Assembly: GCA_005893165.1 (NCBI GenBank)
Contig: VBOR01000063.1
Span: 3,807-48,980 of the forward strand
Source: Candidatus Eiseniibacteriota bacterium
GTDB lineage: Bacteria; Eisenbacteria; RBG-16-71-46; SZUA-252
Reading direction: 5' to 3'
DNA length: 45,174 bases
In this document: piece after piece, positions 4,143 to 45,174 of the stretch
Layout of the letters: the number at the start of each line of letters is the position of its first letter
How positions within the stretch are numbered: the stretch's first letter is position 1
Translations under genes and position numbers: made by a program
The notes under the pieces: model-generated
Seen by the model: only the letters and a program-made list of their open reading frames with translations
Database searches by the model: none
What the model was told of the DNA's origin: nothing

Positions 4143-5303
4143 ACGGGCACCCGCGGGTGCTCCCTCCCCTCGCTCGCCGCGTGGGCCTCGCGCGAAAAGC
4201 CGGACCTGGTCGTGATCGGACCGGACGCGGCGATCGCCGCGGGGCTCGCCGACGAGCTCCAGAAGGGCTCGATTCCCGTGCTCGGTCCCATCCGCGCCGC
4301 GGGCCGCCTGGAGTCGAGCAAGAGCTTCGCCAAGCAGTTGATGCAGGAGTTGAATCTCCCCACGGCGCCCTACCGCCTCGCGCACAGCGCGTCCGAGGCG
4401 AAGCGCATCCTCGCGGCCGCGACCTATCCCATCGTTCTGAAGGCCGACGGCCTCGCGGCCGGCAAGGGGGTGGTGGTCGCGGATACCGAGCGCGAGGCGC
4501 TCGAGGTGATCGCGTCCTGGATGGACCGGGGAGAGCTGGGGGAGTCGGGGAGGACGCTCGTGATGGAGGAGTTCCTTCGCGGGGAGGAAGCCTCGCTCCT
4601 GGTCCTCACGGACGGGGAGCGCTGGATGCTCTTCCCGCCGGCGCGCGACCACAAGCGCGCCTACGACGGAGACACGGGCCCGAACACAGGCGGAATGGGG
4701 GCGTGCGCGCCCGCGCTCGAGCCGAATCACGAGGATGCGCTCGCGATCGGGCGCCGGATCGTGGATCCACTCCTCGCCGCGCTGCGCGCGCGGGGGATCG
4801 CCTATCGCGGGATTCTCTACCTGGGCCTCATGCTCACCCCCTCGGGTCCGATGGTGCTCGAGATCAACGCGCGGTTCGGCGATCCGGAGGCGCAGGTGGT
4901 GCTGCCGCTCCTCGACGAGGACGTGTTGCCGCTCTTTCTCCGTGCCGCCCAGGGCTCCCTTCCCGCGGACCGGCACCGGACATTCCTTCGCCACGCGGGC
5001 GCGGCGGTGTGCGTGGTGCTGGCGGCGGCGGGATATCCTAAAGACACGCGCACCGGGCAGCGGATCGAGGGATTGAGCCACGCGCGGCCCCACGGCATCC
5101 GGTTCTATTGCGCCGGCGTGGACCGCCGCGCGGGGAGATTCGTGACGAGCGGCGGCCGCGTTCTCGGAGTGACCGCCCGTGCCGAGACGGTGAAGCGTGC
5201 GCGGGAGGCGGCCTACGAGGCGGTCTCCTGGATCCGATTCGATGGAATGCACTACCGGCGCGATATCGCGGCGCCACTTCAAACGGGGAGAACCGGCACA
5301 TGA
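4143..5303 (+). CDS. purD: Phosphoribosylamine--glycine ligase (GARS), N-terminally truncated
   Basis: GARS joins phosphoribosylamine and glycine using ATP in the second step of purine synthesis. The ATP-grasp core and C-terminal domain are intact: YPIVLKADGLAAGKGVVV, GEEASLLVLTDGERW, RDHKRAYDGDTGPNTGGMG, VLEINARFGDPEAQVVLP and a GMHYRRDIA end. The first roughly 50 residues, including the conserved Gly-rich GREHA-type loop that starts every PurD, are absent. Recognisable homology starts at SLAAWASREKPDLVVIGPD, only about 25 bases after the gatB stop, and no ATG is available there; the first usable start is the GTG at 4212 (363 residues). There is no room for an intergenic region or ribosome site. 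The loss is a clean deletion or an assembly gap. The stop overlaps purE (ATGA). If the sequence is real, the enzyme is probably inactive. Confidence 0.88.
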   Translation, partial: TGTRGCSLPSLAAWASREKPDLVVIGPDAAIAAGLADELQKGSIPVLGPIRAAGRLESSKSFAKQLMQELNLPTAPYRLAHSASEAKRILAAATYPIVLKADGLAAGKGVVVADTEREALEVIASWMDRGELGESGRTLVMEEFLRGEEASLLVLTDGERWMLFPPARDHKRAYDGDTGPNTGGMGACAPALEPNHEDALAIGRRIVDPLLAALRARGIAYRGILYLGLMLTPSGPMVLEINARFGDPEAQVVLPLLDEDVLPLFLRAAQGSLPADRHRTFLRHAGAAVCVVLAAAGYPKDTRTGQRIEGLSHARPHGIRFYCAGVDRRAGRFVTSGGRVLGVTARAETVKRAREAAYEAVSWIRFDGMHYRRDIAAPLQTGRTGT

Positions 5304-5776
5304 GCGAGAAGGCTCGCGTTTTGATCCTGTTCGGCAGCGATTCCGACCGCGCGGTGATGGAGGAGGCGGCCAAGGTGCTCGAGAGCTTCGGCGTCGGCTC
5401 CCGCCTGGAGATCGCATCCGCGCACCGCAGCCCCGATCGCGTGCGCGAGCTCGTCCAGGAGGCGAAGGGAGCGGGGATCCAGGTCTTCATCGCGGGCGCC
5501 GGCATGGCGAACCATCTCGCCGGCGCGGTGGCGGCGCACACCACCCTTCCCGTGATCGGCGTGCCGCTCGGCGGATCGCCCCTTCAAGGGGTGGACGCGC
5601 TCTATTCCACCGTGCAGATGCCCGCGGGTGTGCCGGTCGCCACGGTCGCGATCGGATCCGCGGGGGCCAAGAACGCCGCCGTGCTCGCGGTCCAGATGCT
5701 CGCGCTCGGGGACCGGGGGCTGGCGCTGAAGCTCGAGGATCTGAAGCAGCGCCTGGCTCGCGGCGAGCGTCTTTGA
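5300..5776 (+). CDS. purE: N5-carboxyaminoimidazole ribonucleotide mutase, class I PurE
   Basis: A 158-residue protein, normal length for class I PurE, which moves the carboxyl group of N5-CAIR to C4 to give CAIR in purine synthesis. The phosphate and nucleotide loops are present: FGSDSDRAVM near residues 11-20, the catalytic SAHRSPDR with His42, AGAGMANHLAGAVA, and PLGGSPLQGVDALYSTVQMP with a following GVPVATVAIG. The ATG overlaps the purD stop by 4 bases, so it is coupled to purD. Class I PurE needs PurK to make its substrate; purK is not in this window. The gene looks intact, in contrast to its upstream partner. Confidence 0.96.
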   Translation: MSEKARVLILFGSDSDRAVMEEAAKVLESFGVGSRLEIASAHRSPDRVRELVQEAKGAGIQVFIAGAGMANHLAGAVAAHTTLPVIGVPLGGSPLQGVDALYSTVQMPAGVPVATVAIGSAGAKNAAVLAVQMLALGDRGLALKLEDLKQRLARGERL

Positions 5777-5818
5777 TCCGCGCCCACCAGAGCGCGGAGA
5801 CTCGAGGAAGAGCTTTCG

Positions 5819-6418
5819 ATGGAACGTCTCGTTCTGGATGCCGGAGGGAAGTGGCGCGATGTCGCCAAGCGTGCCGCCTCCGTGCTCCGCGCCGGCGGGG
5901 TCGCGCTCCTTCCCGCCGAGGGCGTCTACGGCCTCCACGCGTGCGCCGAGGATCCCGTCGCGGTCGAGCGCCTTCTTCGGTTGAAGCCTCGGGAAGAGAA
6001 GAAGGGATTCATCGGCCTGATCGCCGAGCCGCGGGAGCTCGAGCGCTGGACCGAGCCGAACCCGCGCGCCGAGGTGCTCGTGCGGAAGCACTGGCCCGGC
6101 GCGCTGACGCTGGTGCTCCCGGCCTCGGCATCGGTTCCGGAAGCCATGCGCAATCCCGACGGCACCGTCGCGTTGCGATGCCCAGGGAGCCCCTTCCTCT
6201 GCGCGACGGTGGCCGGAGCGGGCGGAATCGTCCTCAGCACCTCCGCGAACCGTCCCGGCGAGCCGGCAATGATCACGCCGGAAGGGTTTCTGGAGGAGTA
6301 CGCGGACCTGGTCGTGGACGGAGGAACGTTGTCCGGAATGCCGTCGACCGTGGTCTCGATCGTGGCCGATCGAGTCCTGGTGCTCCGGCAAGGTTCGGTC
6401 CTGCTCGGTATCTCGTGA
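5819..6418 (+). CDS. YrdC/Sua5-family threonylcarbamoyl-AMP synthase
   Basis: A 199-residue single-domain YrdC protein. Family members condense threonine, bicarbonate and ATP to threonylcarbamoyl-AMP, the first step of the universal t6A37 tRNA modification. The protein has the fold markers AAGVLRAGG-like start (SVLRAGGVALLPAEGVYGLHA), RLLRLKPREEKKGFIGLIAE, HWPGALTLVLPAS, the TVALRCPGSPF strand and the nucleotide-loop LSTSANRPGEPA. The usual PT-TVYGL pattern here reads PAEGVYGL, a small departure. It lacks the extra C-terminal Sua5 domain, so it is TsaC-like in size. It lies 42 bases after purE and ahead of the YwlE-like gene; that order echoes the Bacillus ywlC-ywlE neighbourhood. A YciO-type paralogue without proven activity is the alternative. 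Confidence 0.88.
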   Translation: MERLVLDAGGKWRDVAKRAASVLRAGGVALLPAEGVYGLHACAEDPVAVERLLRLKPREEKKGFIGLIAEPRELERWTEPNPRAEVLVRKHWPGALTLVLPASASVPEAMRNPDGTVALRCPGSPFLCATVAGAGGIVLSTSANRPGEPAMITPEGFLEEYADLVVDGGTLSGMPSTVVSIVADRVLVLRQGSVLLGIS

Positions 6419-6431
6419 GCGGAAGGCGTAC

Positions 6432-6460
6432 TTGACGCTGCGCACCCCGGCTCCTAAACT
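6432..6460 (+). promoter_or_regulatory. Candidate sigma70-type promoter for the phosphatase gene
   Basis: TTGACG at 6432-6437 and TAAACT at 6455-6460 are separated by exactly 17 bases in the gap between the YrdC and phosphatase genes. The predicted transcript would start near 6467, about 38 bases before the ATG at 6505. Two close matches with ideal spacing in a GC-rich background make chance less likely, but no experimental support exists. Confidence 0.5.
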
Positions 6461-6504
6461 CGACCCTTCGAAGGCCTCGTCCCGTTCCGCCTGAAGTGGA
6501 GCCC

Positions 6505-7008
6505 ATGTACCAAATACTCCTGATCTGCACCGGAAACACATGCCGGAGTCCCATGGCCGAGGGGATCCTGCGTTCCCTCTTGCCGGCGGAGCTGGCCCCG
6601 CTGGTGCGCGTCGCGTCCGCGGGCACGGGTGCGGGGGACGGACTTCCAGCGACCCCGCTCGCGGTCCAGGTCTGCGCGGACTCCAAGGTGGATCTCAAAG
6701 GCCATCGTTCCGCTCCGCTGACGCCGGCCCTGCTCCGGGCGTCCGATCTCATCCTGGCCATGGAGCCACACCATATCGAATACGCGCGCGGGCTCGCCCC
6801 CGAAGCGTCGAATCGAATCCATCTCATCACCGAAAAGGGAGCCGCGGGCGCCAAGGCCAAGGACGGGGTGCTGGATCCCCTGGGCGGCACCGCGGAGCAA
6901 TACCGGGACACGTTCCATCGGATCCGGAGCCACCTCCTGGGGTGGATTCCGGTGATCCGGGAATCGGTCGAGCGGCGCGAAGGCGTGCGCCGGTCGAGCG
7001 AATCATGA
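6505..7008 (+). CDS. Low-molecular-weight phosphatase, YwlE-like (possible protein-arginine phosphatase)
   Basis: A 167-residue LMW-PTP fold protein. The catalytic P-loop CTGNTCRS sits at residues 8-15, with nucleophile Cys8 and Arg14 (CX5R), and the general acid Asp124 is in the late DPLGG motif. Classical tyrosine phosphatases of this family usually have Ile at the fifth P-loop position; Bacillus YwlE has Thr there, and that Thr is known to select phosphoarginine. This protein has Thr12, so arginine phosphatase activity is a reasonable inference. A GTG at 6496 is an alternative start adding three residues; the ATG gives the standard family N-terminus. A 17-bp-spaced promoter lies just upstream. 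No McsB-type arginine kinase is visible in this window, so the substrate stays open. Confidence 0.9.
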   Translation: MYQILLICTGNTCRSPMAEGILRSLLPAELAPLVRVASAGTGAGDGLPATPLAVQVCADSKVDLKGHRSAPLTPALLRASDLILAMEPHHIEYARGLAPEASNRIHLITEKGAAGAKAKDGVLDPLGGTAEQYRDTFHRIRSHLLGWIPVIRESVERREGVRRSSES

Positions 7009-35227: not shown

Positions 35228-35316
35228 GCCGGAGTGGTGGAACTGGCAGACGCGCCGGACTCAAAATCCGGTGGAGCTCAAACTCCGTGGGGGTTCAAGT
35301 CCCCCCTCCGGCACCA
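35228..35316 (+). tRNA. tRNA-Leu(CAA)
   Basis: An 89-base class II tRNA. The 7-bp acceptor stem pairs gccggag (35228-35234) with ctccggc (35306-35312), followed by A and an encoded CCA (35314-35316). The anticodon stem ccgga/tccgg holds a seven-base loop with CAA at 35262-35264, which reads the UUG leucine codon. A long variable arm (gtggagctcaaactccg) and the T-arm (gggggttcaagtccccc) are present. The 3' half, from the anticodon loop on, is repeated at 37037-37095, marking it as the target of a site-specific integration. Confidence 0.97.
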
Positions 35317-35317
35317 A
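35259..35317 (+). repeat. 59-bp direct repeat, copy 1 (attL-like, inside tRNA-Leu)
   Basis: Identical over 59 bases to 37037-37095 (offset 1778). It runs from the anticodon loop through the CCA end and one further A. This stretch is the usual attB segment for tyrosine integrases that use tRNA genes. Confidence 0.92.
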
Positions 35318-35408
35318 GTTTTCAAAGGGTTACGCGGCTTGATGAAGTGACACCAGAGAGTGCCCAGATCCGAATTGTGACCGTTCTGTGACCAGGAAGG
35401 GAGATGGC

Positions 35409-35837
35409 ATGAAGGATTCTGGCGGGCCCTACCGCTGCATCCTACCGACGCGGCGTCGAACCGAGCGACATTTCTTGAGCCGGACGGAACTCTTCGTCGG
35501 CCCGGGACACCACCCATGGGCGCGATCCGTCTATGGGATCCGCAGCGCGGTCGAGCACCTCAACGACCGTCTCGCGATCACAGGTTACCCGACTGAGCGA
35601 GAGGCGAAGCTCGCGATCCTGCGGCACACGCACGAGAGCCAGGAGCTGGCACGGGATTGCCTGCCCCGCATCCTGACCCGACCCGGACTTCTCTCGCATT
35701 TCCGTGATGATACGACCCTCGATCAATTCTGGGAGACCATGACGCACGCCCAGCGCGCCCGGCTCTGGGGTGATCCGTTCAAGCTCGCACAGGCAGGAAC
35801 CGAGTTCGATCCGGAACTGGCGACGCTAGACGAGTGA
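35409..35837 (+). CDS. Hypothetical protein inside the tRNA-Leu insertion
   Basis: A 142-residue protein with no family I recognise. Mostly helical and charged; segments such as GIRSAVEHLNDRLAITGYPTEREAKLAILRHTHESQEL and LDQFWETMTHAQRARLWGDPFKLAQ look like a folded protein and not random GC-rich translation. Cys is rare and there is no signal peptide. The ATG at 35409 has aggaagggag at 35393-35402, a good ribosome site; a GTG at 35388 in the same frame would add seven residues. It is the first gene of the insertion, 92 bases after the tRNA end. No anti-phage, toxin or regulatory motif is obvious. Confidence 0.6.
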   Translation: MKDSGGPYRCILPTRRRTERHFLSRTELFVGPGHHPWARSVYGIRSAVEHLNDRLAITGYPTEREAKLAILRHTHESQELARDCLPRILTRPGLLSHFRDDTTLDQFWETMTHAQRARLWGDPFKLAQAGTEFDPELATLDE

Positions 35838-36401
35838 GTTGATTCGCGACGAGTTGATCACCGGAGCGTCTGCGTCTCCAATGATCATCTTCCTATGAAT
35901 ACATGATCATCTTCGAGGGAGAGCGGGCCTTCTGCGGGGGCGTTTGGTCACGTTTCAGGCACAGCGGGGCGAGATTCGGACACGGAGCTTTGCCAAACGA
36001 TTCTCCCGCTTGGGGGATCTTGGGACTTCCATCGGATTCAGCATCCGACAGGCGGACACGAGCCTCGATCTTGCCGGAGTTTGATCCTCTCATCTCCTCA
36101 TTGGCAGGACACCCCCCGGAGGGGCGGCCCCCAGCCCCGGTGATCGCTATTGAGCCGCACCCCGCGATCCGAAACCTGAAATCCAGTGCCGCAGAATTTC
36201 GCGAGAGGTGGGGACATCCCCCGGCACCCGGTATTTGGGTGCCCCCGTCGCGGAAGATGTGTTTTACTCGCGCTTATCTTCGATCTGATTTTTCAAACTA
36301 GCGCTGGTAGGCTGTAGCAGTGAGCCAAAGACCAAAGCCCCGGGGCTGCCCCCCCGCCGTTACCTGAGTCCCTTGAGCCGGCCCAGAGGAAGAACCGGAT
36401 C
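35838..36401. other. 564-base stretch without a supported gene inside the insertion
   Basis: A short direct repeat, atgatcatctt, occurs at about 35880-35891 and again about 22 bases later. An open frame at 35903-36301 (132 residues) exists but has no ribosome site, odd composition (rich in Pro, Arg, Ser) and no recognisable fold; I do not call it. A GC-skewed patch at 36108-36140 with runs of C and G could fold. The remainder shows nothing I can identify. Confidence 0.5.
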
Positions 36402-36770
36402 ATGAAGCTCTTGAACTGCGCGCTGGTCGCGCTTGCCCTCTCCGGCACAGGCTGCGGGTCCCAGTCGTCCCTGTCACCCCAGGTGCTGCAGGTTTCCGGG
36501 ACCGTCCGTCTATCGGACGGCACTGCGGTGGGGGGCGCGGAGGTCTGGGTAGACGACGGCTCCAACACTCGCTCCAGCACTCTATCCGACCCCGCAGGCC
36601 GTTTCAAAATCGTCGTGCCCGCAAATGGAGGCATCATCACCCTCCGCGCATCGGAAGTACCCCCCGCTGGAGTCTTCTCCGTTGGGACCATTTCTGGCAT
36701 GGTGCGCGTCGGAGGGAACCCCGGCCGGATAACGATAGACATCGTGCTCGACCGCTTCGATCCCATCTGA
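36402..36770 (+). CDS. Small secreted or lipoprotein with a carboxypeptidase-regulatory-like beta domain
   Basis: A 122-residue protein. The N-terminus (MKLLNCALVALALSGTGCGS) is signal-like, with Cys18 as a possible lipidation site, though the residues before it (GTG) fit the lipobox only loosely. The mature part VLQVSGTVRLSDGTAVGGAEVWVDDG...STLSDPAGRFKIVVPANGGIITLRASE matches the CarboxypepD_reg-like beta-sandwich pattern: a hxGxV-DG-A-x-G-A-x-V start and a D-x-x-GxF turn. Such domains are common in surface proteins. It ends with RITIDIVLDRFDP. It lies inside the tRNA-Leu insertion; the role is unknown. Confidence 0.7.
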   Translation: MKLLNCALVALALSGTGCGSQSSLSPQVLQVSGTVRLSDGTAVGGAEVWVDDGSNTRSSTLSDPAGRFKIVVPANGGIITLRASEVPPAGVFSVGTISGMVRVGGNPGRITIDIVLDRFDPI

Positions 36771-36967
36771 CGCGATCCCCGCTGGCTGCGGTCCGGGGCG
36801 CGCTCTCACGGGGCACCATATCCTCTCGTCCGCTCCTGAGCCTCATCGGTCCGACGTAAGGGACTACGTAGACCTCTGGACGGGGCTTGCAGCGGAACTC
36901 CGCTATGCCCTTGGCAAATCGCAGGCGACTACTGTGCCCGGACTGTGACCAGACCATCTAGCGGGAA

Positions 36968-36996
36968 CGTTCGGAACCGTTTGCGATCGTTCGGAA
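36968..36996 (+). repeat. Pair of 9-bp direct repeats near the right end of the insertion
   Basis: cgttcggaa occurs at 36968-36976 and 36988-36996, 20 bases apart, which is about two helical turns, 40 bases from the 59-bp repeat. Arm-type binding sites of tyrosine integrases have such spacing and position. At the left end tgtgacc occurs twice, about 11 bases apart, near 35376-35393. Confidence 0.4.
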
Positions 36997-37036
36997 GTCG
37001 CCCGATCGCGCATGATAGTCTCGACCCGTAGGTACA

Positions 37037-37095
37037 ACTCAAAATCCGGTGGAGCTCAAACTCCGTGGGGGTTCAAGTCCCCCCTCCGGCACCAA
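37037..37095 (+). repeat. 59-bp direct repeat, copy 2 (attR-like tRNA-Leu 3' fragment)
   Basis: A copy of the tRNA-Leu anticodon loop to CCA end without the 5' half; bases before 37037 no longer match the tRNA, so it cannot make a tRNA. It marks the distal end of the insertion. Confidence 0.9.
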
Positions 37096-37449
37096 ATATA
37101 GAATTGGTTTCGAAGCCCCGATTCGGTTCGAGACTCATTGGAGCGGCTTCCGCCCGCCGTCGCGCCGCGCGTCAAGCGGCTGGATCGCTTCGTGGCTCCT
37201 CCTCCTCCATCAATGCCATCCCTGACAATCGATCAACTTCTCTCTTCTCCGGACCCGTTCTCGGCGTGCGCTCGTCTCCCAACAAATTTTCCTTCGCGCG
37301 CTTTCACGACGTCCGAGTCTGGATGACTTCCTGACGTCCGCTGGTCGATTGCAGCCACACGATTCACTTCACGACGATTTCGCTGGACCTTCAGATCGCC
37401 CCCTAGGGTAGATTCCAGTACGGGGTCAGATCATGAAGGGAGGCCACAC

Positions 37450-37767
37450 GTGAAGCGGATTGCGACGATCCTCCTTCTCGCTCTGGCATCGACGCTCCTC
37501 GCCCAAGACACGCAACGCCAGCCCGCCAATCCCTACGTACAAGGCACCATCCACGCGATCCAGGCGAGGAGCGGATCGCTCGATCTCGTGACCGGGGTCG
37601 GTATGGCCCTCCGGGTCGCGCACGTCACGGCCCCTCCCACCGCACGACTCGCGGCCGCCGGAGTCCCGCTGAGCGCACTGAAACGCGGCGACATCGTGCG
37701 CGTGCAGTGCCACTGGTCCGGGAAACAACTCGTCGCGGATCGCATCGACACGGTCGGTGTGCGATGA
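37450..37767 (+). CDS. Small secreted beta-rich protein upstream of a di-haem oxidoreductase
   Basis: A 105-residue protein starting at GTG with a strong ribosome site (gaagggagg) seven bases before it. Signal peptide KRIATILLLALASTLLAQ, then a compact domain: YVQGTIHAIQARSGSLDLVTGVGMALRVAHV ... LKRGDIVRVQCHWSGKQLVADRIDTVGV. The GxIxxI-x-x-x-x-G-x-hxL and LKxGDxVxV pattern suggests an OB-like barrel as in DUF5666-type proteins. One Cys, no haem motif. Its stop overlaps the ATG of the next gene (ATGA), so the two are coupled and may work together in the periplasm. It may be a metal- or haem-handling accessory, but there is no direct evidence. Confidence 0.72.
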   Translation: MKRIATILLLALASTLLAQDTQRQPANPYVQGTIHAIQARSGSLDLVTGVGMALRVAHVTAPPTARLAAAGVPLSALKRGDIVRVQCHWSGKQLVADRIDTVGVR

Positions 37768-38924
37768 GGCGCGCGCCGAGCACACCGGCGTGTCTCCTTC
37801 TTCTGCTCGGCCTCATCGCGAGCGGTTGCACCAAGCCCGTGCACCCGGGCGATCCGATTTCGGGCCTGACCCGGGAGCAACTCGATCGATTCCGGCGAGG
37901 CCGGGCGGTCTTCGACACTGTCTTCACGCCTGAGAGGGGACTGGGTCCGCTCTTCAACGCGGCCGCCTGCGGGGAGTGCCACGAGAATCCCGTGTCGGGC
38001 GCATTCGGCGACGAGATCGAGGTGCACGCCACCGCGTTCCACCCTGATGGAAACTGCGATCCGCTTGCGGCGGAAGGTGGCCCCGTGATCCAGCAAAACG
38101 CGACCCCGGCGCTCAAGGCGGCATTGGGGATCGACAAGGAACCCTCTCCCAAGGATGCCACCGCGCTCGCGCACCGAAGCTCGCCCGCGATCTTCGGCCG
38201 CGGCCTGCTCGATGCCGTGCCCGACTCGGACATCGTCTCCTACGCCGATCCCGACGATCGAAATCACGACGGGATCTCCGGCCGCGTGAACCGGTTCGTG
38301 GACGGGCGCGTCGGGCGGTTCGGGCGGAAGGCGTTCGTGCCGGCGCTGGACGAATTCAACGCCGGGGCATTCGTCATCGAGATGGGCGTCACGAATCCAG
38401 CCGTGCCGACCGAGGAATCGATCGGCGGGGATTCAATCCCGCAGGGTGTGGATCCCACGCCCGAACCGGAGATCAACCAGGAGGCGCTCGATCTCACAAA
38501 CGACTTCGTGCGGTTCCTGGCGCCACCTTCTCCATTGCGGCAGAACGGCGCCGCCGGAAGGGGCCGTCGTCTCTTCGATCGCATCGGGTGCGCTTCGTGC
38601 CATTTCCCGACGCTGCGGACGGGAAAGAATGCCGTGCGGGCCCTCGACCGGAAGAAATTCTTTGCCTACACGGATCTTCTCCTCCACGACATGGGCCCGG
38701 ATCTGGCGGACATCTGCCTGGGCCTCGCGACGCCATCCGAGTTCCGAACGGAGCCGCTCGTCGGCGTGCGCCTCGCGAAACATTTCCTCCACGATGGCCG
38801 CGCCGATTCGCTGGAGCAGGCGATCGAGCTGCATGGCGGGGAAGGATCCGGGGCGCGGGACCGGTTCAAGGCGCTCGAGCCCAAGGATCGAAAGGCGCTG
38901 CTGGCGTTCCTCAAGACGCTGTAG
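37764..38924 (+). CDS. Di-haem oxidoreductase lipoprotein (DHOR/DUF1111-like)
   Basis: A 386-residue protein with a lipobox (LIASGC, Cys22) and two c-type haem motifs: CGECH (69-73), after GLGPLFNAAACGECHENPV, and CASCH (276-280) in GRRLFDRIGCASCHFPTLRTG. The sequence RGRAVFDTVFTPERGLGPLFN, RSSPAIFGRGLLDAVPD, DPDDRNHDGISGRVNR and LLLHDMGPDLAD ... EFRTEPLVGVR ... FLHDGRADSLEQAIELHGGE is the signature of the DUF1111 di-haem oxidoreductase family, relatives of cytochrome c peroxidase. Physiological electron donor and substrate are unknown for the family. It would sit on the outer face of the membrane. Convergent with the ATP-grasp gene; 42 bases separate the stops. Confidence 0.9.
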   Translation: MRRAPSTPACLLLLLGLIASGCTKPVHPGDPISGLTREQLDRFRRGRAVFDTVFTPERGLGPLFNAAACGECHENPVSGAFGDEIEVHATAFHPDGNCDPLAAEGGPVIQQNATPALKAALGIDKEPSPKDATALAHRSSPAIFGRGLLDAVPDSDIVSYADPDDRNHDGISGRVNRFVDGRVGRFGRKAFVPALDEFNAGAFVIEMGVTNPAVPTEESIGGDSIPQGVDPTPEPEINQEALDLTNDFVRFLAPPSPLRQNGAAGRGRRLFDRIGCASCHFPTLRTGKNAVRALDRKKFFAYTDLLLHDMGPDLADICLGLATPSEFRTEPLVGVRLAKHFLHDGRADSLEQAIELHGGEGSGARDRFKALEPKDRKALLAFLKTL

Positions 38925-38966
38925 GGGCGACCGCTAGCCTTTGATTTCCGCTCTAGAGGAAGAGCC

Positions 38967-41354
38967 CTAGCGCCGAATGGTGGGCGGGAACAGCGGGCGC
39001 GGACGGTCCCCGCGGAAGGCGTAGGTCTCCAGAAACGGGCCCAGCGGCCCGGCGAGGATCCCCTTCTCGGTGATGTACTGGGCGGCGTAAACGTCCCCCG
39101 AAGAGTTCAACTCTAGAATCAGCGGACCCTTCGACGTCAGCGCGATGTCCCAGTTCTGCCACCGGGCGCCCGGGAACGCCGTGGCCGCCCGCAGGCAGAG
39201 CGCGACCGCCGCGTGCCAATCCGGGAGCGTGAAGCCCTTCATGCTACCTCCCGAAATCGGATGCAGATCGACGTCCTTCCGCCCGCGTCCCGTTCCGCCG
39301 ATCACGCGGGTAACCCGCCCGGTCGCGAGATCCAGCCCTCCGATCAGATTCGCCGTGTCGCCCTTGGCGAAGTTGGACACCGGGCTTCGACCTGACGGAA
39401 TGCCCCAGTCCGCGTGGATGAGCTCGGGACCGTCGTCGTGGAGCAGAACGATCATGCGCACGCTCGATATCGTCGGGCCGCACAGCGCCCGGATCTGTTC
39501 GTGCGACTCCAGATGTTCCAGGAAGAGGAACCCGAAACCCGTCGGATCGAGGAGCCCCGCGAGGAAATCCTCGACGCGGATTTGCTTCCCGCTGCTCAGA
39601 ACGAGACGATCCTTCGCTGCGTCGTATGCGCTCACCGAGTAGCAGGAGCGCCCCTCGCTTCCCTTGATGGGTTTCACGAAGAAGGGGTAGCGCATCCCCG
39701 CACGCAGGAACGCCGCGAGGGGGCCAGGCTCCGTGAAGCAGCGGGCAGTCCCGTAAGAGCGCGGCTCGGACGTCGCGACCGCGTACACGCGCGCGTGGGG
39801 AAGGCCGGCAGCCTCGAGGTACCCCGTCTGCGCCAGCTTGTCGGTCATCAGGACTTCCCAGGCCTTGTTGTTCAGGCGGCGGTGGATCTCCTTCTTGAAT
39901 CCGTCTCCCGCAAAGGCGCGCCGGTCGGCCATCGTGTAGCTCGGGTCGTAGAGCCGGAAATCGTAGTACTCCGCGGAGCGGAGCCCTATCGGGCTCACCC
40001 TTAGCCGGACGAGGTCGCTCAGCTGGACGAGCAGACCGCGTCCCGTGATCCGCCTGGCATGAATCGCTTCCGGCAGGAGCGTGAGGCGCGCGCGAATCTT
40101 CCGGAACACCCCCTCCCGCGGCAGCGCCTTGTCCAGCGCACCCCAGAGAAGAATGGCCGCATCCCAGAAGGCAGGCATCGGATCGTCCCAGGCCGCGATC
40201 GGCTTCTCGCTCCAGATCCAATCACGGATGCATTCCCGAAGGCCGATCCGGCCCGCTTTCCGGAGCGCTTGGCAGGCGCCCCAGTCGCGCTGGACGAACA
40301 CGCACCGGACCCCGGTCCGGTAATCGGGGACCGCTTCCATGGGGAGCCGGAGCGCGTCCTGGTAGGAGAGCAGAGGCATGTTCATGCCGCACGCCTCGGC
40401 GAAGCCGATGTACCACCAGGGACGCGCGTTCATTTCGAGCATCTTGAAGATTCCGTCCGTGGGATCGCGCTTGAACTCCGCGCTGAAGATTCCCCGGACG
40501 CGGAGCCCCTGGAGCAGCCGCTCCAGGGAGGCGATCGCGGGTCCCACCTCCTCGATCGGCACGCTGATCGTGCAGGTGCTGTTTCCGAAATCCGGAGGGT
40601 TCATCCGAATCCTGCGCCTGCCGAAGACCGCGAGGATGCTGCCGCTCCGGTCCACGAAGCCGTCGATGAAATAGTGGCAGTCGGGCGGGCCGGGCAGGTA
40701 CTCCTGAAGCAAGAGGTCCAGTCCGTCCTGGGCCACCTCCTCGTAGACGAGCGCCGCCGATTTCCGGTCGGTGCACGGAAGGGCTTTCACGCGGTATTTC
40801 GCCGAGAAGCTCTGGGAATTGCACGGCTTGAGAAACGCGCGATCGAAGCAGCTGTCGGGGAGCGCCTCGAGATCCTCGACCGAGCGTATGGCCAGCGTGT
40901 GCGGGTGGGGGACGTCGAACCGGCGAAGCGCCTCGGCAAAACGTGCCTTGTCCACCAACACGGCCTGGGTCTCGGGGCTTGAGATCGAGGCCGGGAAGCG
41001 TTCGGCGATATCCGCGGGGAGACCGGCGACCGCGGCCGACCAGATATCCGTGCAGGCCAGCAGCACCGCGCTCTCGAAAGGAAGCTCGCGAAGCGCCGCG
41101 GCGAGCGCCATGGGATCGGGGGATTCGGGAATGGGCTTGGGGAGCGGGTGACTCCATCGCGATCGGCGCGCGTAGCCGATCGCCGCGGAGGCGACCGTGA
41201 CCGGAATGCCTTCCCGCCCCAAGCAGCGCAGGGTGCCGAGCAGGGTGAGACCCGAGCCGAACGCGAGGACCGGGACCTTGGTCTTGGGTGTCGAATGCAA
41301 GGAACGCCGTTTCGGAAGGCGGCGTCTGTCCCAGGGTGCCAGGCCATTCCGCAC
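38967..41354 (-). CDS. Two-domain ATP-grasp protein (PylC/carboxylate-amine-ligase-like plus sugar-transfer-associated ATP-grasp)
   Basis: A 795-residue minus-strand protein that looks like two ATP-grasp enzymes in one chain. Part 1 (about 25-430): N-terminal Rossmann-like start VPVLAFGSGLTLLGTLRCLGREGIPVTVAS, then VDKARFAEALRRFDVPHPHT, FLKPCNSQSFS, LLLQEYLPGPPDCHYFIDGFVD and metal-binding FSAEFKRDPTDGIFKMLEMNARPWWYIG. Part 2 (about 440-795): FVKPIKGSEGRSCYSVSAYD, FLFLEHLESHEQIRALCGPTISSVRMIVLL, and WQNWDIALTSKGPLILELNSSGD, which match the sugar-transfer-associated ATP-grasp domain seen beside polysaccharide genes. The start is a GTG; a TTG 18 codons later is possible. ATP-grasp enzymes form amide or peptide bonds; two in one chain suggest two successive ligations. 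No peptide precursor or glycan genes are next to it. It is divergent from a lipoprotein gene. Confidence 0.85.
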   Translation of the reverse strand: MRNGLAPWDRRRLPKRRSLHSTPKTKVPVLAFGSGLTLLGTLRCLGREGIPVTVASAAIGYARRSRWSHPLPKPIPESPDPMALAAALRELPFESAVLLACTDIWSAAVAGLPADIAERFPASISSPETQAVLVDKARFAEALRRFDVPHPHTLAIRSVEDLEALPDSCFDRAFLKPCNSQSFSAKYRVKALPCTDRKSAALVYEEVAQDGLDLLLQEYLPGPPDCHYFIDGFVDRSGSILAVFGRRRIRMNPPDFGNSTCTISVPIEEVGPAIASLERLLQGLRVRGIFSAEFKRDPTDGIFKMLEMNARPWWYIGFAEACGMNMPLLSYQDALRLPMEAVPDYRTGVRCVFVQRDWGACQALRKAGRIGLRECIRDWIWSEKPIAAWDDPMPAFWDAAILLWGALDKALPREGVFRKIRARLTLLPEAIHARRITGRGLLVQLSDLVRLRVSPIGLRSAEYYDFRLYDPSYTMADRRAFAGDGFKKEIHRRLNNKAWEVLMTDKLAQTGYLEAAGLPHARVYAVATSEPRSYGTARCFTEPGPLAAFLRAGMRYPFFVKPIKGSEGRSCYSVSAYDAAKDRLVLSSGKQIRVEDFLAGLLDPTGFGFLFLEHLESHEQIRALCGPTISSVRMIVLLHDDGPELIHADWGIPSGRSPVSNFAKGDTANLIGGLDLATGRVTRVIGGTGRGRKDVDLHPISGGSMKGFTLPDWHAAVALCLRAATAFPGARWQNWDIALTSKGPLILELNSSGDVYAAQYITEKGILAGPLGPFLETYAFRGDRPRPLFPPTIRR

Positions 41355-41463: not shown

Positions 41464-42018
41464 ATGAGACTCAGAATCGGCATCGCGGTGGTGATGGCGG
41501 CTTTCCTGACGCCGGGGTGCGGAAGCGACCACGTCGTCGGGCCTGGAAGCCCCCCGGTCAGCAAGTACCCCAAGCTCATCAACCCCTACAGCGTCCTGGA
41601 CGCGCTCCAGATCGCCTACCAGGACAAGGACACGACCGAGATCAAGGCGCTCTACCACGACCAGTACGATGGAAGCTCCATCGACCAGACCGATCCCGCG
41701 CCTGCGACGGTGACCTTCACGAAGGCGAACGAGGTCGCCCACGTCTCCGCGCTACGCCATAGCTCGAGCATCGGCAGCATCAATCTGACGAGCGGCCCGG
41801 GTCGCGAGCGATTCAGCGACGGCGCCGATCCGCCCGGTTGGGCCACGATCCGGAATCCGTTCACGGCGATCGAAATCAGCGACGCCACGACAACGCGCAC
41901 TGTCGACATGGCGCACATCACGATGGAGTTCAAGTTCATCCCCAAGACTCCCGACTCCAGCTCGCCGACCGACACGACGTGGAAGATCATCCGCTGGACC
42001 GAAGTCAGGGTACCCTGA
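41464..42018 (+). CDS. Small secreted protein or lipoprotein
   Basis: A 184-residue protein with a signal-like N-terminus (RLRIGIAVVMAAFLTPGCGS); Cys19 is a possible lipidation site although the LTPGC context is not ideal. The mature part is a SnoaL/NTF2-like pattern at first sight (YSVLDALQIAYQDKDTTEIKALYHDQYDGS near residues 40-70), then a beta-rich region with FTAIEISDATTTRTVDMAHITMEFKF and WKIIRWTEVRVP at the end. These are the traits of small DUF4440/NTF2-like lipoproteins found in many copies in such genomes, where the ending W-x-I-x-x-W is common. The ATG at 41464 has an aggagat ribosome site. Its role is unknown. Confidence 0.78.
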   Translation: MRLRIGIAVVMAAFLTPGCGSDHVVGPGSPPVSKYPKLINPYSVLDALQIAYQDKDTTEIKALYHDQYDGSSIDQTDPAPATVTFTKANEVAHVSALRHSSSIGSINLTSGPGRERFSDGADPPGWATIRNPFTAIEISDATTTRTVDMAHITMEFKFIPKTPDSSSPTDTTWKIIRWTEVRVP

Positions 42019-42065: not shown

Positions 42066-42815
42066 TCAGCCGGTTCCTCCTGCCTCGATCCCCGCGCTCG
42101 ACCCGAGCAGCGACCGGAGCAGGAGCCGCCATCCAGGAGCCAGCCAGAACTTCAGCATGATGTCCGCGGCGAGAAATGCGAGCGAGGCGCCGAGGAGGCG
42201 TCTCACGGGGACGCGCGGTCCGTTGCGGTCGTAGAGGCGCGAGACGCCCCACAGAGCGGCCCCCGTGCCCGCGAAGATGAAGGAGACCACGCGCATCATC
42301 GGCCAGGGGGGCCAGGCGAGGAAGGCGGCGGCGAGGGGTCCCGTCTTCGGATCGGCATGCGCGACGACCCATCCCACGTAGCCGTTCATATAGCCGAGGA
42401 GGAGCGCGCCCAGGAGCAAGGCCGCGACTCCCAGAGAAACCGCGGAGAGCACCACGACGAGCACGTATTCCAGAATGACGCGAGGCAGGAAGAGGAGGAT
42501 CGATCCCTCCGCGCCCGCGCCGGTCGCGATCCAGCGCAGCATCTCGTCGCGATAGGCGCTCGCGTGCCAGATCCCGCGCACGATCGCCTCGGGGGATCGC
42601 ACCACCGAGGCGACGGTGGAGACGCACAGCGCCGCGGCCCACGCGAGCGTCAGGAGCGCGGCGTCACGATGTCTTCGCGCCAGGATCGCGCGCGCGTACA
42701 CGACCGCGAGCGGCAGCACCGGAAGCACCGCGAAGAGAAACGGGTTCCGTAGCGGCAGGAGCAGCGGCGGGAGCACGAGGGCCGGGATGACACAGGCGGC
42801 CAGGGCGGGTATCAT
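42066..42815 (-). CDS. Multi-pass membrane protein of unknown family
   Basis: A 249-residue protein with five to six hydrophobic helices: PALAACVIPALVLPPLLLPL, LFAVLPVLPLAVVYARAIL, LLTLAWAAALCVSTVASVV, VILEYVLVVVLSAVSLGVAALLLGALLLGYM, MMRVVSFIFAGTGAALWGV and LLGASLAFLAADIMLKFWLA. The N-terminal layout resembles a Yip1 or SpoIIM-like membrane protein but I cannot place it. The ATG at 42815 is preferred; a TTG at 42836 would add seven residues. A TATACT (42831-42826, minus strand) lies just upstream and would give a very short leader. It is divergent from the dehydrogenase gene. Localised in the inner membrane; function unknown. Confidence 0.75.
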   Translation of the reverse strand: MIPALAACVIPALVLPPLLLPLRNPFLFAVLPVLPLAVVYARAILARRHRDAALLTLAWAAALCVSTVASVVRSPEAIVRGIWHASAYRDEMLRWIATGAGAEGSILLFLPRVILEYVLVVVLSAVSLGVAALLLGALLLGYMNGYVGWVVAHADPKTGPLAAAFLAWPPWPMMRVVSFIFAGTGAALWGVSRLYDRNGPRVPVRRLLGASLAFLAADIMLKFWLAPGWRLLLRSLLGSSAGIEAGGTG

Positions 42816-42865
42816 GACGGCGCGGAGTATAGGCAAACCGCTCTCGTTCCCGTAAGGAGAAGTCC

Positions 42866-44422
42866 ATGCTTCCGGAGTTTCACAGCGCGCCGATGCTCGA
42901 TTTCGCGCGTCCCGACGCGGAGGCGGGGATGCGCCAGGCGCTCGAGCAGGCGCGATCCAAGTTCGGCACGACCTATCCTCTCGTGATCGGCGGGAAGCGG
43001 ATCACGACCAAGGAAACCTTCCAGAGCAAGAATCCGGCGAACCCTTCCGAATGCGTGGGCAATTTCTCGAAGGCCACGGTCGAGCACGTGAACGACGCGG
43101 TGGCCGCGGCCGAGAAGGCGTTCCAATCCTGGTCGCGCATTCCGCCCGAGGAGCGCGCCGACGTGCTGCTCCGCGCGGCCGGGCTCCTCCGCAAGCGCCG
43201 TCACGAGATCAACGCCACGATGGTGTTCGAGGTGGGGAAGAACTGGCTCGAGGCGGACGGCGACACCGCCGAGGCGATCGACTTCTGTGAATTCTACGCC
43301 CACGAGATGATGCGCTGGGGGTCGCCCACCGCGCACCCGCTGGTACCGAACCCCGGCGAATCGAACGACCTCCTCTACATTCCGCTCGGGGTCGGGGTGG
43401 TGATCCCGCCCTGGAATTTCCCCTGCGCGATCGCGATGGGAATGACCGCGGCGGCCGTCGTCACGGGGAACAGCGCGATCCTGAAACCGAGCAGCGACTC
43501 GCCCCTGACGGCGTGGAAGATATTCGAGGTTCTGGAGGAGGCGGGAGTGCCCGCGGGGGCGCTGAATTTCCTTCCCGGTCCTGGAGGGACGATCGGCGAC
43601 GCGCTGGTGGAGCATCCGCGCGTCCGGTTCGTGGCGTTCACCGGCTCGATGGAGGTCGGGATCGGCATCAACGAGCGCGCGGCGAAGGTGCCGAAGGGGC
43701 AGATCTGGCTCAAGCGCGCGATCCTCGAGATGGGCGGGAAGGACTTCATGATCCTGGACGAGGACGCGGATCTGGAAGCGGGCGTGGCGGGAGTCCATGC
43801 GGCCGCCTTCGGATTCCAGGGACAGAAATGCTCCGCGTGCTCGCGGGCCATCGTGCACGAGAAGCTCTACGACGAATTCGTGGAGAAGCTCCGCGTCCGC
43901 ACCCAGGCCATGTCGATCGGCCCGACGGAGAAGCCCGAGAACGATCTCGGTCCGGTCGTGAGCGCGTCCGCGGAGAAGAAGATCCTCGAGTACATCGAGA
44001 TCGGGAAGGGGGAGGGAAGGCTGATCACGGGCGGCGGCAAGCACTCGGGCCCCGGGTACTTCCTGAAGCCCACGATCATCGCCGACGTGAAGCCGAACGC
44101 GCGAATCGCGCAGGAGGAGATCTTCGGTCCTGTGCTCGCGGTGATCAAGGCGCGCTCCTTCGAGGAGGAGATCGAGATCGCGAACGCCACGATCTACGGA
44201 CTGACCGGATCCTATTACAGCCGGGACCGCGCGCGGGTGGCCGAGGCGAAGCGCCGCCTCCACGTCGGGAACCTCTACATCAACCGGAAGTGCACGGGAG
44301 CGCTCGTGGGGATTCACCCCTTCGGTGGGTTCAACATGAGCGGGACCGATTCCAAGGCTGGAGGACGGGATTACCTCGGGCTGTTTCTCCAGGCCAAGTC
44401 CATCGCCGAATACGTGGGCTGA
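42866..44422 (+). CDS. L-glutamate gamma-semialdehyde dehydrogenase (1-pyrroline-5-carboxylate dehydrogenase)
   Basis: A 518-residue aldehyde dehydrogenase of the RocA/PruA type, which oxidises glutamate semialdehyde to glutamate with NAD+ in proline and arginine breakdown. Evidence: N-terminal PRPDAEAGMRQALEQ-like start, YPLVIGGKRITT, NPANPSECVGNFSKAT, VVIPPWNFPCAIAMGMTAAAVVTGNSAILKPSSDSPL, catalytic Glu in LEMGGKDFMILDEDADLE, catalytic Cys in FGFQGQKCSACSRAIVHEKLYDEF, EEIFGPVLAVIKA and GIHPFGGFNMSGTDSKAGGRDYL. The extended N-terminal part is as in monofunctional PruA of about 515 residues. Ribosome site taaggaga is upstream. No proline dehydrogenase is adjacent. Confidence 0.93.
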   Translation: MLPEFHSAPMLDFARPDAEAGMRQALEQARSKFGTTYPLVIGGKRITTKETFQSKNPANPSECVGNFSKATVEHVNDAVAAAEKAFQSWSRIPPEERADVLLRAAGLLRKRRHEINATMVFEVGKNWLEADGDTAEAIDFCEFYAHEMMRWGSPTAHPLVPNPGESNDLLYIPLGVGVVIPPWNFPCAIAMGMTAAAVVTGNSAILKPSSDSPLTAWKIFEVLEEAGVPAGALNFLPGPGGTIGDALVEHPRVRFVAFTGSMEVGIGINERAAKVPKGQIWLKRAILEMGGKDFMILDEDADLEAGVAGVHAAAFGFQGQKCSACSRAIVHEKLYDEFVEKLRVRTQAMSIGPTEKPENDLGPVVSASAEKKILEYIEIGKGEGRLITGGGKHSGPGYFLKPTIIADVKPNARIAQEEIFGPVLAVIKARSFEEEIEIANATIYGLTGSYYSRDRARVAEAKRRLHVGNLYINRKCTGALVGIHPFGGFNMSGTDSKAGGRDYLGLFLQAKSIAEYVG

Positions 44423-44453
44423 GACTTCCGCGCTGTGTGAACTACCTAGGAAA

Positions 44454-44475
44454 GAACTCGTCCTGGGACGAGTTC
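44454..44475 (+). terminator. Perfect inverted repeat downstream of the dehydrogenase
   Basis: A nearly closed palindrome (gaactcgtcc/ggacgagttc, 44454-44463 with 44466-44475) 32 bases after the stop, between convergent genes. It could fold as a 9- to 10-bp hairpin in both directions. There is no T run on either side, so it is a weak terminator candidate or a protein-binding site. Confidence 0.4.
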
Positions 44476-44551
44476 CACATTCGGAAGTCCCTGCTGCACC
44501 GCGATTTCACCTTCAATTCGTGTTTCCGAAGAGCACCCAGCTCGTGACGGT

Positions 44552-45174
44552 CTAGCGCTGGGGGCGACTCGCCGCAGGCTCGCCCGATCGCGCCAGAAGC
44601 CCGGCCAGGATCTCGCGGGCGTATGAGGGAAGGGTGTCGTCGCGGGCGCCCATGACGACCACGCGGTCGCCTCGACGGGCTCCCTCGATGACACCCTGCA
44701 GCGCTTCCTCGCGCGAGGCGACCTTCGCGGACCGGTCCGACCGGCTCACCGGCCTGGCGATGTCCTCGGATTGGATCGTCCGGTTGGCGGTGCCCCCCGC
44801 GTCGTAGATGGGCGTGAGGAGAAGATGGTCCCCGGGACGGAGCGCCGACCGAAACGTATCGATGAGCTCGTCCCGGAAGAACCGGGTCGGCCCGTAGCCG
44901 TGGGGCTGGTAGAGAACCCAGAGCGCGCCGTTGGGGCGGAGGGCCTCGATCGCCATCCGGATCTTCACCGGGTTGTGGGCGAAATCGTCGTACACGTCCA
45001 CTCCGTCCGCGGCTCCGACCCGCTCCAGCCGCCGGCGCACGCCCGCGAATCGCTCCAGCGATTGCGCCGCGGCCTGCACGTGGATTCCGGCCGCGACCGC
45101 GGTCGCGATGGCGAAGGCCGCGTTCTGCACCGTCAGGAGGCCCGGAAATGGAACGCGCGCTTCCGCGCCGCCGA
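44552..45174 (-). CDS. Mur ligase family protein, C-terminal part (5' end outside window)
   Basis: The minus-strand frame is open to the window end, so at least 207 residues of the C-terminal half are seen. Mur ligases add amino acids to UDP-MurNAc by way of an acyl-phosphate; this resembles MurC or Mpl. Evidence: LLTVQNAAFAIATAVAAGI (linker between the central and C-terminal domains), ERFAGVRRRLERVG, the DDFAHNPVKIRMAIEALRP motif, LYQPHGYGPTRFFRDELIDTF and LLTPIYDAGGTANRTIQSEDIA. MurC normally reads DDYAHHP; here the second His is Asn and the YQPHGYGPTRF segment is of the kind seen in Mpl-like proteins. The ATP-binding domain is outside the window, so the exact enzyme is not decided. Confidence 0.85.
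   Translation of the reverse strand, partial: GGAEARVPFPGLLTVQNAAFAIATAVAAGIHVQAAAQSLERFAGVRRRLERVGAADGVDVYDDFAHNPVKIRMAIEALRPNGALWVLYQPHGYGPTRFFRDELIDTFRSALRPGDHLLLTPIYDAGGTANRTIQSEDIARPVSRSDRSAKVASREEALQGVIEGARRGDRVVVMGARDDTLPSYAREILAGLLARSGEPAASRPQR

Follow-up and report, generated by a model that had tools for sequence, protein, structure and literature searches.

A single gene in a Candidatus Eiseniibacteriota genome joins two ATP-grasp enzymes of different ancestry

A single open reading frame in a genome of a Candidatus Eiseniibacteriota bacterium encodes two ATP-grasp units in one chain, which raises the questions of whether both units are complete enzymes, where each of them came from and what they might do together. 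The stretch of DNA analysed here, referred to as the window, comprises 45,174 nucleotides of contig VBOR01000063.1 (assembly GCA_005893165.1), and the features of the locus are listed in Table 1. An initial annotation of the window had proposed that two ATP-grasp units of different lineage are joined in one chain. The frame was found to be open over all of its 795 codons, and the gene is present at a single place in the whole genome (contig C40).

Table 1. Coordinates of the fused gene, its functional residues and the surrounding features in the window.
Feature	Position	Strand	Remarks
tRNA-Leu (CAA), left border of the genome-specific stretch	35228..35316	+	
tRNA-Leu 3' end, first copy of 59-bp direct repeat	35259..35317	+	
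Second copy of the 59-bp tRNA-Leu 3' end	37037..37095	+	perfect, attachment-site-like
6.1-kb stretch lacking at this place in same-genus genome G002	35318..41430		gene calls and matches, L092
Fused double ATP-grasp gene	38967..41354	-	795 aa, GTG start; stop-free open frame
N-half, residues 1-425 (homology about 12-411; enzyme about 20-422)	40080..41354	-	ATP-grasp, CPS-like lineage
C-half, residues 426-795 (relatives align from about 430)	38970..40079	-	ATPgrasp_ST (PF14397)
Junction, residues 411-430	40065..40124	-	complete enzyme on each side
K136, ATP lysine, linker before N-half grasp domain (RAGNYA)	40947..40949	-	invariant, 17 rows
K176, second ATP lysine of N-half (end of RAGNYA strand 2), motif FLKPCNS	40827..40829	-	invariant, 17 rows
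E307-x-N309, metal-binding ExN of N-half, LEMNARPW	40428..40436	-	E307 at least 90%, N309 invariant, 17 rows
K506, ATP lysine in C-half linker	39837..39839	-	invariant, 12 rows
K561, ATP lysine of C-half, motif FVKPIKGSEGR	39672..39674	-	invariant, 12 rows
S570, replaces phosphate-loop glycine of C-half	39645..39647	-	G in 11/11 other rows
D736, acidic metal ligand of C-half	39147..39149	-	invariant, 12 rows
E748-x-N750, ExN of C-half, LELNSSGD	39105..39113	-	invariant, 12 rows

The longer matches to the N-terminal half (N-half) stop at about residues 396-411, and the matches of relatives of the C-terminal half (C-half) begin at about residues 430-438, so the protein consists of two full-length enzymes separated by a very short linker. 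The gene is an end-to-end fusion of two complete ATP-grasp enzymes that differ in ancestry. In the Pfam scan, PF14397 (ATPgrasp_ST) was recognized at residues 488-767 (E 1.3e-28, 100.4 bits, cutoff 31.4), in agreement with the initial assignment of one unit to the sugar-transfer-associated type, and PF15632 (ATPgrasp_Ter) at residues 213-351 with a score of 29.1 bits, which is exactly its cutoff of 29.1. The NCBIfam scan of the fused protein gave matches only far below the cutoffs, and its direct comparison with solved structures gave nothing convincing (one row, E 0.64).

PF14397 was detected in 16 genomes of a wide sample of 385, and in two of 47 genomes of the source phylum, one of which is the source genome itself. 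The closest relatives, all stand-alone and Pseudomonadota by their records, are a protein from locus L067 (38% identity), a protein encoded on a Lichenicola plasmid (33%) and the products of two neighbouring genes in locus L068 (30-32%); together they form a clade with the C-half (support 96/94). When searched with a profile of the C-half family, the RimK and D-Ala-D-Ala ligases came first. An AF2 model made with four C-half relatives was mostly confident for the C-half, and this part of the model (about residues 482-785) aligned with ArgX (Z 16.9, rmsd 2.6 over 215 residues, model residues 483-781), followed by RimK (Z 15.7), LysX (15.5), DcsG (14.4) and cyanophycin synthetase (14.1), with D-Ala-D-Ala ligases also among the fold matches. 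ArgX, RimK, LysX, DcsG and cyanophycin synthetase form amide or peptide bonds.

The N-half belongs elsewhere. The large subunit of carbamoyl-phosphate synthase (CPS) was the first match of the N-half family profile to solved structures (3.3e-26), with biotin carboxylases and an L-amino acid ligase also recovered; PylC, to which the initial annotation had likened this unit, was absent from the best 60 of the 151 matches. A narrower profile, built from close relatives, recovered only a CPS-like protein (0.0029) plus two weaker rows. The structure models of this half had a mean pLDDT of 35 when predicted from a single sequence and values mostly below 50 in the AF2 model with four C-half relatives. 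By their profile matches, the N-half and the C-half have different origins, as the initial annotation had claimed.

Within a set of 59 genomes, 10 contained matches, the source genome included, and in all except the source genome the N-half alone was covered. In another phylum, matches were obtained in 20 of 132 genomes, and six stand-alone proteins (L107-L112) match the full-length N-half at 41-46% identity in the search and at 38-45% in the alignment. In a 23-row tree, the N-half groups with these six proteins (100/100), and the relatives from its genus and family fall outside this clade. When the six proteins were left out, the N-half was placed weakly beside a protein of its own family.

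For the ATP-grasp superfamily, PMC4431377 gives two lysines (the first of them in the linker), an acidic residue and an ExN pair as the expected residues. The four motifs quoted in the initial annotation are present and hold the conserved residues of this set, namely K176 (FLKPCNS), E307 and N309 (LEMNARPW), K561 (FVKPIKGSEGR) and E748 and N750 (LELNSSGD). Both E307 and N309 are invariant in the seven close N-half rows, as is E293, the acidic residue of this half; by sequence only, E293 was assigned to strand 4 and the ExN pair to the last strand. Ten columns have the same residue in all 16 other N-half rows, and nine of them are kept, the exception being P172 to R; of the 73 columns identical among the six close relatives, 67 are kept. 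In the C-half, R633, a further expected residue, is also present. Of 13 columns that do not vary among the 11 other rows, the C-half keeps 11, including both lysines, the acidic residue and the ExN pair; the two changes are G570 to S and T701 to S. The glycine-rich loop (ssxGbGl) is present as KGSEGRS, with S570 in the position of the conserved glycine. In a profile-profile comparison of the two halves, the lysines and the ExN residues pair up. A loss of ATP-binding residues in one half, which the initial annotation had named as grounds for rejection, was not seen in the alignments: lysines, acidic residue and ExN are kept in both. Apart from the single glycine-to-serine exchange, both halves are probably intact and active, in line with what had been suggested.

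We searched for the same fusion in other genomes, as the initial annotation had advised, and no second case was encountered among about 900 genomes, nor among the plasmids and viral contigs scanned. No match extended over both halves elsewhere in the sets of 385, 132 and 396 genomes, some of which belong to more than one set (the matched part of the query was reported, and rows were partly fetched). Among the loci that were fetched, 84 frames matched the N-half, 24 matched the C-half and none matched both, the copies of the gene itself (window, L001, L013) being excluded and overlapping loci being counted repeatedly. The plasmid search gave matches in 65 of 72,556 records, none of which covered at least 80% of the fused protein. 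On genome contigs, no relative was obtained from 45 stretches, and 70 stretches yielded three C-half loci, none of them fused. Nothing was found in the phylum of G260, which was represented by three genomes only, and the viral contigs scanned held no relative. Several long frames (G094, 664 aa; G591, G805, G731 and G842) were considered as second fusions and rejected, as each carries one half only. Both parts belong to known enzyme superfamilies, and the literature searched gave no name for their pairing or for the operon of the N-half relatives described below; a description may exist in Iyer et al. 2009, which is reportedly the founding paper on these amidoligases.

The fused gene is part of a 6.1-kb stretch between a tRNA-Leu gene and a lipoprotein gene. 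In the same-genus genome G002, this stretch is lacking at the corresponding place: only about 80 bases separate the tRNA-Leu from a lipoprotein gene, whose match in the window is at 41920-41997. The block beyond it (42066-45154) is conserved in G002, G003 and G006. A di-haem oxidoreductase (DHOR) gene is located at 37707-38924, and the block to which it belongs (37434-38925) is located elsewhere, on different contigs, in the same-genus genomes G002 and G003. When an element integrates at a tRNA, a copy of the tRNA 3' end stays behind. The two 59-bp repeats of this locus bound 1.8 kb (35318-37095) with short open reading frames, which resembles the remnant of an integrated element. The second copy bounds only this segment, and the fused gene is located outside it; the gene may have entered at the tRNA in an insertion that took place earlier. 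No integrase was recognized.

A MurC-like ligase, truncated by the contig end to its C-terminal part, is encoded at 44552-45172; it adjoins a gene for L-glutamate-gamma-semialdehyde dehydrogenase and was dropped as a partner because the two genes are conserved side by side in G002, G003 and G006, in which we saw no fused gene. A defence system was also considered, but neither the fused protein nor five nearby open reading frames had a match in PADLOC.

That the gene has no neighbouring pathway, as stated initially, holds for the window, where no GNAT or thiamine diphosphate (ThDP) partner gene was found, but not for the closest relatives of the N-half. In the six loci L107-L112, the ATP-grasp gene comes first, and in five of them it is closely followed by a PF13480 GNAT gene and then by a gene for a ThDP enzyme; in the sixth (L110) there is no GNAT gene and the ThDP gene follows directly. 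One or both of these genes are thus located downstream of the ATP-grasp gene in all six loci of the close clade. Four of the five GNATs were assigned by the Pfam scan, and the one in L109 only by a model built from the loci's own proteins. Three of the ThDP proteins were scanned; they resemble acetolactate synthase, with scores that stay under the curated cutoff in every match listed. Among 29 frames related to the N-half for which flanks were available (window excluded), a GNAT-type gene was found within 600 bases in 11 and a ThDP gene within about 1.1 kb in six; since the models were built from nine GNATs and five ThDP enzymes of these same loci, most of these hits arise by construction.

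The source genome appears to lack the partner genes, as searches of it with the GNAT and ThDP proteins gave weak best hits (E 4.4e-4 and 8e-10, 24-25% identity) in a draft that is 91.8% complete. ThDP enzymes such as YerE build branched sugars (compare PMC12247030), and by analogy a branched-sugar pathway is one idea for where the N-half may have had its home. The operon of ATP-grasp, GNAT and ThDP genes is a better-defined target for finding the chemistry.

A cell-envelope or sugar-polymer role, the former being one of the contexts suggested in the initial annotation, is favoured by the loci of some relatives, and the link is not uniform. Two more distant N-half relatives are located in exopolysaccharide/exosortase-type loci, where a FemAB protein (TIGR03019, in L036) and a deacetylase (TIGR03006, in L039) scored above their cutoffs. 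Matches above the cutoffs were also obtained for wecB in L038 and for rmlC in L111, a member of the close clade, while an exosortase-type ATPase in L037 and a NeuB-like protein in L042 were below theirs. The single neighbour scanned in each of L040, L041 and L049 gave no sugar-polymer family. These mixed neighbourhoods make the envelope link of the N-half suggestive, not uniform. Two different ATP-grasp genes are present in one exopolysaccharide cluster (L035 and L036), each adjoining a FemAB/GNAT-type gene.

Among the four loci of C-half relatives considered, L068 has the make-up of a polysaccharide-type cluster: alongside its two ATPgrasp_ST genes it contains genes for a MurF-like ligase, WbsX and an asparagine synthase. 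The MurF-like Mur ligase is fused to a peptidyl-tRNA hydrolase domain and is encoded between the two ATPgrasp_ST genes (L068 positions 4841-6736). No sugar genes are annotated near the relative on the Lichenicola plasmid, the gene calls around L067 gave no sign of a sugar locus and no family for the one neighbour scanned, and the one neighbour scanned in L043 is restriction-helicase-like, again with no sign of a sugar locus.

The reading that we tentatively prefer, at somewhat less than an even chance, is a bifunctional carboxylate-amine ligase, an end-to-end fusion of two ATP-grasp enzymes that would carry out two successive ATP-driven couplings. The N-half would phosphorylate a carboxylate with ATP and couple it to an amine, after which the C-half, with its RimK/Ddl/LysX-type fold, would activate a carboxylate, perhaps on the product of the N-half, and add a second amine or amino acid. 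In this way the active sites of both halves would be tethered for sequential use, the substrate would likely be a sugar or another cell-envelope precursor, and the protein would represent a two-step amide ligase assembled after gene transfer. The activity, the order of the steps and the class of substrate are inferred. If the halves act in sequence, the fused gene would offer a compact, cloneable system for unusual amides. It is unlikely, though conceivable, that the fusion reflects an exchange of partners, in which an ATP-grasp enzyme that in other genomes passes its product to a neighbouring GNAT-type transferase moved into an unrelated genome and was fused to a second ATP-grasp enzyme replacing the transferase, yielding a self-contained two-unit system for amide decoration of a sugar or envelope precursor.

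The relationship of the N-half family to CPS large subunits, its best solved relatives, would also fit a single-product synthetase of that kind, with the halves performing two ATP-consuming half-reactions of one reaction. Two ATP-grasp domains in one protein is the layout of CarB, for which the exact phrase "two ATP-grasp domains" is used in PMC11915815; the halves of CarB are described there as an internal duplication, whereas those of the fused gene belong to different lineages. Both halves also exist as stand-alone enzymes, a search with the fused protein gave no TIGR01369 match at E<=1, the other CPS-like models were far below their cutoffs, and we consider such a synthetase quite unlikely. 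Domain fusions often leave one domain regulatory, and S570 in the C-half loop could be taken to mean that one half only is catalytic while the other serves in substrate binding or as a scaffold. Against this stand the conserved columns, 11 of 13 in the C-half, with the catalytic residues among them, and 67 of 73 in the N-half; a single catalytic half is a doubtful explanation.

That two adjacent, separately translated genes were joined by a base error or an assembly error is quite unlikely in our view, even though the source genome is a draft (2.55 Mb, 143 contigs, 91.8% complete) and a second fusion was absent from the sets searched. Between residues 386 and 446, the frame offers just two possible start codons. 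ATG393 is located within the N-half, and GTG416 is at the junction, immediately preceded by a run of purines, which makes for poor spacing of a ribosome site. The frame is uninterrupted, the junction is away from the contig ends, and the halves are alike in GC content (66.8% in the N-half, 66.4% in the C-half) and in composition by codon position. Least probable of all, and highly improbable, is that the gene is relic cargo of a decaying island with no current function. Its place is island-like, with no integrase recognized and no partner genes found, but the 795 codons are open, the GC content at third positions is 0.84 in each half and the catalytic residues are kept.

The fused protein shares features with several known systems and differs from each. 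With RimK, LysX, ArgX and the D-Ala-D-Ala ligases, the C-half has a common fold (Z about 13-17) and matches between family profiles, while the aligned core is only 10-22% identical among the matches listed. As a member of ATPgrasp_ST, the C-half scores more than three times the family cutoff; none of the relatives examined combines both kinds of ATP-grasp unit, whereas the C-half of the fused protein sits behind another one. The match to TIGR02291 (alpha-L-glutamate ligase-like) is weak (27.6 bits, far below the curated cutoff of 314.2); RloC (PMC12239564) would be a member of that group, with an operon that differs from the window. CarB has two ATP-grasp units per chain and is related to the N-half family by profile, and its halves duplicate one unit, unlike the two lineages of the fused gene.

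In Campylobacter, Cj1438 is a multidomain protein whose C-terminal amidoligase (Cj1438C), an ATP-grasp domain, amidates the glucuronic acid of the capsule, a sugar carboxylate (PMC11800379). Its partner in that protein is a glycosyltransferase, and the amidoligase belongs to the TupA-like family, for which the Pfam scan of the fused protein gave no match. The proteins of L107-L112 resemble the N-half over its full length and group with it in the 100/100 clade; their genes are followed by those for the GNAT and the ThDP enzyme, whereas in the fused gene a second ATP-grasp enzyme has been fused on instead.
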